Program-made: the position numbers and the translations under genes | Assembly: GCA_030037265.1 (NCBI GenBank) | Contig: JASHRQ010000046.1 | Span: 1 to 33,593 of the forward strand | Origin: Thermoplasmata archaeon | GTDB lineage: Archaea > Thermoplasmatota > Thermoplasmata > Lutacidiplasmatales > UBA184 | Direction: 5' to 3' | Length of the DNA: 33,593 bases | Notes under the pieces: model-generated | Databases searched by the model: none | What the model was told of the DNA's origin: nothing | The model's input: the letters and a program-made list of their open reading frames with translations, nothing else | Shown here: one piece after another, positions 17,120 to 32,758 of the stretch | Position numbering within the stretch: the stretch's first letter is position 1 | How the letters are laid out: every line of letters begins with the position of its first letter

Positions 17120-17644
17120 ATGCCCCGCTCCGCCGCCCCGGACCCGTCGGACGGCGAGGGCCGGGTCCTCTCGCTCCACCGGAAGCCCGAGGTCCCGGGC
17201 GAGCACGGGCTCCCGAAGGCGGAGATCGCCGAGGTGCTCGTGACCGCCCGCGGAGTGGAGGGAGACTTCAACCGGTACCGCCACGAGGTGCAGCGGGACG
17301 AGCCCGGGCAGGCGCTGCTCCTGATGCCGATCGAGATGATCCGGACGCTCAACGAGGAGGGGTGGCCGATCCGTCCCGGCGACCTCGGCGAGAACGTCAC
17401 GACCGAGCGGATCCCGTACGACCGGTTCCGGGTGGGCGGCCGCGTGAGGGTCGGCGAGGTGCTCGCGGAGGTCTCGAAGCCGTGCACGCCGTGCACCAAC
17501 CTCGAGCTCCTCCCGTACGTCGGCCACGCCCGGGGACCCGAGTTCATCCGCACGATGGTCGGGCGACGGGGCTGGTACGCCTGGGTCCGCTCGGAGGGCC
17601 GGGTCCGACGGGGCGACCCGATCCAGCTCCTCCCCGCGAAGTAG
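17120..17644 (+). CDS. MOSC domain protein
   Basis: 'GVEGDFNRYRHEV...ALLLMPIEMIRTLNEEGWPIRPGDLGENVTTERIPYDRFRVGGRVRVGEVLAEVSKPCTPCTNL'. Confidence 0.85.
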   Translation: MPRSAAPDPSDGEGRVLSLHRKPEVPGEHGLPKAEIAEVLVTARGVEGDFNRYRHEVQRDEPGQALLLMPIEMIRTLNEEGWPIRPGDLGENVTTERIPYDRFRVGGRVRVGEVLAEVSKPCTPCTNLELLPYVGHARGPEFIRTMVGRRGWYAWVRSEGRVRRGDPIQLLPAK

Positions 17645-26686: not shown

Positions 26687-27142
26687 ATGGACGAGGAGCT
26701 GTACCCGATCGTCATCCAGGTGACGATCCCGCTCCCGACGAAGATGATCTTCGCGGCGCTCACGGAGCCGGCCGGCCTCGCGGGGTGGCTGTGCCGCGAG
26801 GCGCGCCTCGACCCCCGGGTCGGCGGCGAGTACGCGCTCGCGTTCGACGGGCCCCCGCCGTTCCGCTCGTGGGGCCGGCTGACCCACTTCACCCCCGAGG
26901 TCGACGTCGGCTACGACTGGCGCGCGCCGCCGGAGTTCGACGACCTCATGAACCGTCCGGAGCCGAAGACCCGGGTCTACTTCCGGCTCCAGGACTCGCC
27001 GGAGGGGATCGACGTCACGCTCGAGCAGTTCGGCTGGGTGAGCGGGCCGGCCTGGGAGGAGGCGCGCTCCTGGCACTTCCACTTCTGGGACGAGCGGATG
27101 ACCCGGCTCAAGGAGCATCTCCTGAAGCAGGCCTACGGCTGA
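26687..27142 (+). CDS. SRPBCC/AHSA1 domain protein
   Basis: 'PLPTKMIFAALTEPAGLAGWLCREARLDPRVGGEYALAF...GIDVTLEQFGWVSGPAWEEAR'. ATG about 29 nt after CCTAAA. Confidence 0.8.
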   Translation: MDEELYPIVIQVTIPLPTKMIFAALTEPAGLAGWLCREARLDPRVGGEYALAFDGPPPFRSWGRLTHFTPEVDVGYDWRAPPEFDDLMNRPEPKTRVYFRLQDSPEGIDVTLEQFGWVSGPAWEEARSWHFHFWDERMTRLKEHLLKQAYG

Positions 27143-27342
27143 GCGGTCGCCCCCGCCGGCGGGCCGCCGGCCGGCGAGTACCGGCCGCAGACGGAGGCGC
27201 CGCAGCGGGCGCACGGCCCGGTCGGGGCGAGGTGGAAGCTGCTCCCCGCGCCCGGCGCGTCGGGCGTCACCGCGAGGTGGTCCGTCGGGAGGTGGCCGCA
27301 CCGGCACCGTCGGGCGGTGGCGCGAGACGTCGACGAGGACAT
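27133..27342 (-). CDS. Small putative zinc-binding protein
   Basis: 69 aa with 'CRCGHLPTDHLAV...CARCGASVCGRY'. Confidence 0.4.
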   Translation of the reverse strand: MSSSTSRATARRCRCGHLPTDHLAVTPDAPGAGSSFHLAPTGPCARCGASVCGRYSPAGGPPAGATAQP

Positions 27343-27451: not shown

Positions 27452-28165
27452 GTGGAGGTCGGCGGCTGCCCCGTGCCGGACGACTGCCTCGTCGACGTCG
27501 AGAACGACGTCTGGGCCCGCGCGGACGGGCCGGGCGGCGCCTACGTCGTGGGACTCCTCGCGTCCCACGCCGCGTTCGCGGGCCGGCTCCTGTCGGTCCG
27601 GTTCCGGCCGCTCGAGGGCCCGGTGGAGCGCGGCCGCAGCGTCGCGACGATCGAGAGCGGCCGGCTCACCGGCCCGGTACGGCTCCCGTTCTCGGGCACG
27701 ATCGTCGAGCGGAACCCGCTCCTGCTCGAGCGGCCGAAGTGGGTCAACGACTCGCCGTACGACCGCGGCTGGTTCGTCCGGGCGGTGCCCGCCGACCCGA
27801 ACGAGCCCGCGCGGACGCTCGCCCGTCCGGAGGCCGCGCGGGCCGCGCTCGCCGCGCAGATCGCCGAGCGGCGGATCCAGTGCTACCCCGCCGCGCCGGA
27901 CCTCGAGATGATCGAGATCGGCTCGGAGTGCAGCGCGATCCTCGCGAAGCTGGACGACGAGCTCGCCCGCCGGGCCCCCGACGACATCGTGCTCCTCGTC
28001 TCGGACGACCCCACGAGCCCGATCGAGCTCGTGCGCTGGACCGACCGGACCGGCCACACGGTCCTCCACCACCGGGTGGACGGGACCCTCCACCGGTTCC
28101 TCATCCGCAAGGAGGCGCACCCGGTCCCGCGGCCGCCCGAGCGCGGGACGCCGGCGGAGCCGTAG
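27452..28165 (+). CDS. GcvH-like (lipoyl-site K->R) fused to a TusA-like domain
   Basis: N-terminal 'YVVGLLASHAAFAGRLLSVRFRPLEGPVERGRSVATIESGRLTGPVRLPFSGTIVERNPLLLERPKWVNDSPYDRGWFVRAVPAD' parallels GcvH; C-terminal 'IEIGSECSAILAKLDDELARRAPDDIVLLVSDDPTSPIELVRWTDRTGHTVL..RFLIRK' parallels TusA/SirA. Confidence 0.75.
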   Translation: MEVGGCPVPDDCLVDVENDVWARADGPGGAYVVGLLASHAAFAGRLLSVRFRPLEGPVERGRSVATIESGRLTGPVRLPFSGTIVERNPLLLERPKWVNDSPYDRGWFVRAVPADPNEPARTLARPEAARAALAAQIAERRIQCYPAAPDLEMIEIGSECSAILAKLDDELARRAPDDIVLLVSDDPTSPIELVRWTDRTGHTVLHHRVDGTLHRFLIRKEAHPVPRPPERGTPAEP

Positions 28166-28176
28166 GCGTCCCGCGC

Positions 28177-29043
28177 TCAGGCCGTCTTCTCGACCGGCAC
28201 CCGGACGCGGTTCCCCCACTCCGACCAGGAGCCGTCGTAGTTCCGCACGTCCGGGTAGCCCAGGAGGTAGGTGAGGACGTACCAGGTGTGGCTCGACCGC
28301 TCCCCGATCCGGCAGTAGGTGATGACCGGCTTCCCCGGCACGACGCCCTTCGGCGCGTAGAGCGCCTCCAGCTCCTCGCGCGACTTGAACGTCCCGTCGT
28401 CCCGCACCGCCTGGGCCCACGGGATGTTCGCGGCGCCCGGGATGTGGCCCCCGCGCTGGGCGGCCTCGTTCGGGTACTCGGGGGGCGCGGTGATCTCGCC
28501 GGAGAACTCCTTCGGCCCGCGCACGTCGACGAGCGCGGAGCCGCCGGCCTTCACGTCGGGCAGGCGGCCGAGCACGTCGTCGAAGAACACCCGGATCCGC
28601 TCGTTCGGCTTCGCGGCCGCGCTGAACTGCGTCGCGGGGTAGCTCGGGACGTCCTTGGTGAGCGGGCGGTCCTCGGCGACCCACTTCTTCCGCCCGCCGT
28701 CGACCAGCCGGACGTCGCGGACGCCGTGGTACTTGAACACCCAGAAGGCGAACGCGGCGAACCAGTTGTTGAAGTCGCCGTACAGCACGAGCGTCGTGTC
28801 GGGCCCGATCCCGCTCCGCCGGAACAGCGCCGTCAGCTGCGGCCCCCCCAGGATGTCGCGCGACGTCGGGTCGTTGATGTCCTTCCGCCAGTCGAACAGC
28901 ACCGAGCCCGGCACGTGGCCGGTGACGTAGTTCGCCGCGGGGTCGTAGTCGACCTCCGCGATGCGGACCGCCGGGTCCTTGAGGTGCTTCCCGACCCATT
29001 CGGTATCGACGAGCGTTTCCGGATGCGCGTAGCTGGCTCCCAT
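28177..29043 (-). CDS. sseA: Thiosulfate/3-mercaptopyruvate sulfurtransferase (tandem rhodanese)
   Basis: 'LVDTEWVGKHLKDPAVRIAEVD', 'YVTGHVPGSVLFDW', active-site loop 'YCRIGERSSHTWYVLTYLLGYPDVRNYDGSWSEWGN'. Confidence 0.93.
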   Translation of the reverse strand: MGASYAHPETLVDTEWVGKHLKDPAVRIAEVDYDPAANYVTGHVPGSVLFDWRKDINDPTSRDILGGPQLTALFRRSGIGPDTTLVLYGDFNNWFAAFAFWVFKYHGVRDVRLVDGGRKKWVAEDRPLTKDVPSYPATQFSAAAKPNERIRVFFDDVLGRLPDVKAGGSALVDVRGPKEFSGEITAPPEYPNEAAQRGGHIPGAANIPWAQAVRDDGTFKSREELEALYAPKGVVPGKPVITYCRIGERSSHTWYVLTYLLGYPDVRNYDGSWSEWGNRVRVPVEKTA

Positions 29044-32332: not shown

Positions 32333-32758
32333 CTAGCCGCCGCACCCGCAGCCGCCGCCGTTGGCCGCGTTGCTCCCGCAGGAGCTGCAGCCGCCCGCTA
32401 TCCCCGCTTCGTCGGGCTCGGGCAGTTTCGGGTTGGTGATCTTGAACCCGGATTCCTGGAGGGTCTCCACGTAGTCGACGACCGCGCCGTCCACGAACTG
32501 CTGGCTGCTCGGGTCGACGAGGATCGAGAGCCCGTTCACCTTGACGACGGTGTCGTCCGACCGGGGCTTCGAGAACGCCATCCCGAACATCACGGCCGAC
32601 GCGCCCCCCCCGCATCCACAGCCGCCCCCGCCGCAGCCGCATCCCCCGCCGCTGCCTCCCGGCTGCGCGTAGATGCGGACCCCGACCTCGCCTTTCTGGG
32701 ACTGGATCAGTCGGCGAATCTGCTCGGTGGCCACGGGCTTGAACTCGACAGAGATCAT
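32333..32758 (-). CDS. HesB/IscA-type iron-sulfur carrier with Cys/Gly-rich insertions
   Basis: 'DTVVKVNGLSILVDPSSQQFVDGAVVDYVETLQESGFKITNPKLPE' is the A-type carrier core; 'GGCGCGGGGCGCGG' insert and 'GGCSSCGSNAANGGGCGCGG' tail. Confidence 0.85.
   Translation of the reverse strand: MISVEFKPVATEQIRRLIQSQKGEVGVRIYAQPGGSGGGCGCGGGGCGCGGGASAVMFGMAFSKPRSDDTVVKVNGLSILVDPSSQQFVDGAVVDYVETLQESGFKITNPKLPEPDEAGIAGGCSSCGSNAANGGGCGCGG

Follow-up and report, generated by a model that had tools for sequence, protein, structure and literature searches.

An LbpA-TusA fusion protein of the Lutacidiplasmatales that keeps three invariant cysteines, has lost the lipoyl lysine and is paired with a thiosulfate sulfurtransferase

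A gene found in uncultured soil archaea of the order Lutacidiplasmatales encodes, in a single chain, LbpA joined to a TusA-type sulfur carrier. Computation recovers both folds, three cysteines are invariant among the orthologs, the lipoyl lysine has been lost in the Lutacidiplasmatales protein though not throughout the fusion family, and the gene forms a conserved pair with that of a thiosulfate sulfurtransferase. In our estimate there is about an even chance that the fusion works as a lipoate-independent, cysteine-only carrier of sulfane sulfur (persulfide) fed by the neighbouring sulfurtransferase. The window, by which we mean the whole stretch of DNA analysed, comprises 33,593 nt (Thermoplasmata archaeon, assembly GCA_030037265.1, contig JASHRQ010000046.1) and contains the following features, among which the reading frame of the fusion and the codons of Arg71 and Cys160 lie exactly where an earlier note on this DNA had placed them.

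27452..28165, + strand: LbpA-TusA fusion protein (GTG start, 237 amino acids; 101 distinct full-length orthologs)
27452..27886, + strand: LbpA/GcvH-fold half, residues 1-145 (Pfam GCV_H over residues 18-132; Foldseek 1onl; branches apart from GcvH)
27467..27469, + strand: Cys6 codon, N-terminal LbpA-type cysteine in a GCPxP motif (invariant, 101/101)
27662..27664, + strand: Arg71 codon CGG, at the lipoyl-lysine position (sequence, model, orthologs and tree)
27881..27883, + strand: Cys144 codon, C-terminal LbpA-type cysteine (invariant, 101/101)
27899..28111, + strand: TusA-fold half, residues 150-220 (Pfam, Foldseek and orthologs)
27929..27931, + strand: Cys160 codon TGC, at the TusA active-site position (sequence, model and orthologs)
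28177..29043, - strand: thiosulfate sulfurtransferase, a two-domain rhodanese with the active-site loop CRIGERS (converges on the fusion gene tail-to-tail; the 3' ends are separated by 11 nt)
27133..27342, - strand: small Cys/His-rich protein of 69 amino acids, CxC...CxxC...C (diverges from the fusion gene head-to-head, the starts lying 109 nt apart; no Pfam match)

The earlier note, made from the sequence alone, had proposed a chain composed of a GcvH-like and a TusA-like part, and profile searches and structure prediction both bore this out. The N-terminal half matched Pfam GCV_H (E 4.9e-20, 72.1 bits, residues 18-132) and the C-terminal half matched Pfam TusA (E 1.9e-6, 28.1 bits against a curated cut-off of 28.6 bits, residues 157-220); in the genome search the TusA part reached 30.7 bits, above this cut-off, and both families were matched by 45/45 aligned orthologs, TusA at E<=0.01. 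Searching the fusion with Pfam revealed no DNA-binding domain. The AlphaFold2 model (mean pLDDT 95.3, pTM 0.87) was compared with the PDB by Foldseek, which retrieved GcvH (1onl, target TM 0.94, rmsd 1.3 A) and E. coli TusA from its complex with IscS (3lvj, target TM 0.86, rmsd 1.4 A). In this model Arg71 occupies the turn that connects strand 63-69 to strand 73-77, i.e. the lipoyl hairpin, as the earlier note had expected, and helix 160-173 opens with Cys160. The C-terminal half thus shares with TusA/SirA (PF01206, E. coli TusA 3lvj) the fold and a cysteine at the start of helix 1, but it differs from that family in lying behind an LbpA domain, in its borderline score against the curated Pfam threshold and in the absence of the CPxP motif.

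The identity of the N-terminal half had to be revised. According to Cao et al. 2018 (PMC6067878), what distinguishes LbpA from GcvH is a cysteine close to each terminus, a rule from which some archaeal LbpAs deviate; the lipoyl lysine, they report, is strict in LbpA (95/95). The earlier note had called this half GcvH-like; judged by its residues and its phylogeny, it is better described as LbpA-like, because it keeps the N- and C-terminal LbpA cysteines and branches with the LbpAs of sHdr systems apart from GcvH. In the domain tree the fusion proteins form one clade (100/98, with a copy from family f26 cut off at a contig end included) separate from GcvH, and the window's fusion scores far below the cut-offs of the GcvH equivalogs (37.4 bits against 115.85 for TIGR00527; 63.6 against 117 for PRK01202). 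The nearest homologues of the fusion proteins in the same genomes are Lys-bearing LbpAs (36-40% identity), which carry the N-terminal motif of the fusion, GC-x-x-P-D/E-D, together with a C-terminal IRCxRCQ, a pattern also displayed by LbpAs elsewhere in the phylum. The fusion therefore resembles LbpA in its GcvH fold, its GCxxPDD-type N-terminal cysteine and its C-terminal cysteine (PMC6067878), but unlike LbpA it does not conserve the lipoyl lysine, is fused to a TusA-like domain, and is encoded outside the sHdr cluster next to a thiosulfate sulfurtransferase. With GcvH (PF01597, 1onl), the partner of the P, T and L proteins in glycine cleavage, it shares the fold and the hairpin, whereas the replacement of the lipoyl lysine by Arg71, the additional terminal cysteines and the low equivalog scores distinguish the two. 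A plain GcvH with a chance extension is ruled out by the three conserved cysteines, by the fold and by the presence of a separate GcvH gene.

The fusion was detected in 80/106 genomes of the window's order, all belonging to one family (f1, Lutacidiplasmatales/UBA184). Family f1 was equated with UBA184 because the fusion locus of the UBA184 record (L032) agrees with locus L011 of f1 in position and match statistics; the paper describing the order assigns UBA184 to Lutacidiplasmatales (PMC9287336). When 400 genomes sampled from the class were searched by profile, families f25 and f11 were added as well as the truncated f26 copy, and a draw of 390 genomes from the phylum yielded no full-length fusion outside f1, f25 and f11, only separate LbpAs. 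Exact peptide patterns searched in 84,980 genomes, a method that reaches close relatives only, matched UBA184 alone. Literature searches for an LbpA/GcvH-TusA fusion returned nothing relevant. Nearly all of the genomes are fragmented and incomplete assemblies, that of the window being 82% complete.

Cys6, Cys144 and Cys160 show no variation in the 101 distinct full-length orthologs that these three Thermoplasmatota families provide; the first two had escaped the earlier note. The CPxP motif, which that note had reported missing from the window's protein, is present in 0/101 orthologs, its place being taken by CSAV (the commonest form), CSAI, CAAV and similar sequences. Residue 71, by contrast with the cysteines, is Arg in 88 orthologs, Lys in 12 and Thr in one, and its state has changed at least seven times on the tree, which argues that lipoylation is not selected across the fusion family. 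Arg71 is fixed in 80/80 sequences of f1, and lipoylation at the usual site would therefore be impossible in the window's lineage, as first supposed; in f25 and f11, the only families with Lys orthologs, Lys71 and Arg71 interchange among close relatives. Of the two residues whose conservation the earlier note had proposed to check, Cys160 is conserved throughout and Arg71 in f1 only. Orthologs with Lys71, which the earlier note had regarded as a sign of a sequencing error or an isolated mutation, do exist in two sister families, but either explanation of Arg71 is ruled out by its fixation in f1. Since the lipoyl site is free to vary while the three cysteines are fixed, it would be the cysteines, and not lipoate, that do the work in this protein, and this is our main argument.

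The kinship of both halves with LbpA and TusA had pointed the earlier note towards sHdr-type sulfur metabolism. The kinship is real, but the fusion itself is not tied to sHdr. No hdr-like genes occur among its conserved neighbours, and some 18 genomes of the order have true sHdr-LbpA clusters at other sites. In these clusters (L053, L054-L062) LbpA is accompanied by two CCG-domain HdrB-like proteins, an Fer4 (HdrC-like) protein, an FAD protein, two DsrE proteins and TusA; they also include another GcvH-like protein, which is shorter and contains ESEKWVGH. With LbpA matches used as a proxy for the distribution of sHdr, no LbpA was found in 64/80 fusion-bearing genomes, which argues that the fusion is not an sHdr subunit, and membership of an sHdr operon was rejected given the lack of hdr-like conserved neighbours and the non-significant co-occurrence with LbpA (p 0.23). 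In the paper on Lutacidiplasmatales (PMC9287336), neither 'heterodisulfide' nor 'TusA' turned up when the text was searched. A link to the sulfite oxidase PF00174 was also discarded: it occurs in 45/106 genomes, is absent from the window's assembly and shows no significant association with the fusion (p 0.07).

The constant partner of the fusion gene in f1 and f11, overlooked in the earlier note, encodes the thiosulfate sulfurtransferase. This neighbour matches Pfam Rhodanese in two stretches, its best solved relative being 1uar (E 1.7e-112), and it combines the tandem rhodanese domains with the catalytic CRxGxR-type loop of its class; CRIGERS was present in 98/98 sulfurtransferase ORFs. A thiosulfate sulfurtransferase has been reported for Lutacidiplasmatales (PMC9287336). 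In f1 the two genes lie tail-to-tail in 74/80 fusion loci, with gaps of 2-76 nt save one of 684 nt; the remaining six loci include four contig ends and one whose contig carries the sulfurtransferase at a distance of about 9 kb. In f11 they are tail-to-tail in 7/7 loci (7-13 nt). The orientation in both families is always convergent, so the pair is not an operon. Genome by genome in the window's order, 78 contained both genes, two the fusion only, six the sulfurtransferase only and 20 neither (Fisher p 2e-14, with no correction for phylogeny). In f25, a sulfurtransferase lies near the fusion in only 3/14 loci, and a match was found somewhere in 20/22 genomes queried (21 of f25 and one of f26).

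At L082 (5623-5760, - strand), a remnant of a sulfurtransferase 3' end that has lost the active-site cysteine is separated by about 20 nt from the point where an f25 fusion gene ends; this is likely a fossil of an ancestral tail-to-tail arrangement and suggests that the pairing was broken by insertions. On contig C37 of genome G159 (L135-L136, 15.9-41.7 kb), at least seven partial copies of the sulfurtransferase 3' end (82-97% identity) are scattered among long YD/RHS-repeat ORFs between the sulfurtransferase and the fusion, which are about 44 kb apart; this gives the 3' end of the sulfurtransferase gene the look of an insertion hot spot.

The transfer of the sulfane sulfur of thiosulfate to the cysteine of a sulfurtransferase is established chemistry for this class of enzymes. 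In the mechanism that we propose, the CRIGERS cysteine would take up this sulfur with release of sulfite, and the persulfide would then pass to Cys160 in the TusA-like domain, a residue that we assume to be reactive despite the missing CPxP. Cys6 and Cys144 would allow the LbpA-like domain either to receive the persulfide or to present it to a downstream acceptor; a lipoyl arm would no longer be needed, and residue 71 would need only be basic. The direction of sulfur flow, the contact with the sulfurtransferase, the transfer between cysteines and the final acceptor are all postulated here. Relays from a rhodanese to carrier proteins that feed sHdr have been described, and the TusA-like protein TsuB can cleave thiosulfate and become persulfidated (PMC11582611). 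TsuB (YeeD) resembles the fusion in its TusA-like fold and its one reactive cysteine for thiosulfate sulfur, a role predicted for Cys160, but it lacks an LbpA domain and works with the membrane importer TsuA, whereas the partner gene of the fusion encodes a rhodanese-type sulfurtransferase. The earlier note had listed a scaffold, a persulfide carrier and a regulatory protein as outcomes of a changed mechanism; of these we favour the persulfide carrier.

A different use of the same cysteines can be envisaged, in which the fusion carries no bulk sulfur and acts as a redox or sulfane-sulfur sensor or adaptor, a switchable disulfide or polysulfide altering its binding to a partner such as the small Cys-rich protein. 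The small five-cysteine protein (RCxCGHxPTxHM...GPCxxCGxxxC) lies head-to-head with the fusion in 63/80 f1 loci, always divergent and mostly 110-171 nt from the fusion start; it probably binds metal, and its family is undescribed. This conserved neighbour would suit such a reading, and the disappearance of lipoyl lysine and CPxP alike fits a non-catalytic role, but the fusion lacks a DNA-binding domain, the small protein is absent beside the f25 and f11 orthologs, and the link to the sulfurtransferase is older and wider than that to the small protein. We therefore regard a sensor or adaptor as unlikely.

It is quite unlikely, in our view, that the fusion is a biosynthetic sulfur donor, taking the place of a separate TusA in the thiolation of tRNA or in Moco or Fe-S assembly, its LbpA half being an inert docking domain. 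Its TusA half is indeed the only TusA-family match in the window's assembly, but that assembly is 82% complete, CPxP is missing from every ortholog, and the LbpA cysteines are as invariant as that of TusA, which an inert domain would not need. An A-type Fe-S carrier gene (Fe-S_biosyn) speaks for such a donor: it belongs to the same syntenic block as the fusion, SUI1 and an ABC transporter in 18/30 loci. In the window this gene (32333-32758, - strand) contains a Gly/Cys-rich insert (GGGCGCGGGGCGCGGG). Elsewhere in the window, an ORF at 17120-17644 (+ strand) appears MOSC-domain-like by eye, and a MOSC-like ORF also occurs near the fusion in 6/13 f25 loci.

Synteny of much of this block, SUI1 and the ABC transporter included, raises the question of whether the tail-to-tail pairing is mere conserved gene order and the fusion acts in an unrelated process. 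This is very unlikely given that the pair persists in L046-L048, where SUI1, the ABC transporter and other neighbours have been lost, that it recurs in f11 amid different neighbours, and that genomes G066 and G082 each contain it twice, with both genes together each time; overall, the two genes tend to be present or absent together. Least probable of all is that the protein is still a lipoate-type carrier, lipoylated in its Lys71 members and apo or recently degenerated in the Arg71 ones: the Lys in the hairpin of 12 f25 and f11 orthologs and of the LbpA relatives would fit, and lipoylation is probably available to the cell, since the window's genome has its own Lys-bearing GcvH (ESVK) and a lipoate-ligase-family gene, but a protein in which Arg is fixed across f1 and the remainder is well conserved is not degenerating, and Lys and Arg are swapped repeatedly among close relatives.

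As a persulfide carrier, the fusion would be a candidate acceptor of sulfane sulfur for the thiosulfate sulfurtransferase of Lutacidiplasmatales, for which we found none named in the text available from PMC9287336. More tentatively, and with the balance somewhat against it, the family may represent a lipoate-free branch of LbpA in which both carriers of the rhodanese-TusA-LbpA relay reside in one chain and cysteines alone move the sulfane sulfur of thiosulfate independently of sHdr; the two LbpA cysteines would then be sulfur-carrying sites and the lipoyl arm dispensable. LbpA, which is lipoylated by sLpl(AB) with LipS1/S2, is thought to act through lipoate. In the fusion, the lipoate site has been removed while the cysteines are kept and TusA is joined to them, and the role of the LbpA cysteines thereby becomes directly testable.
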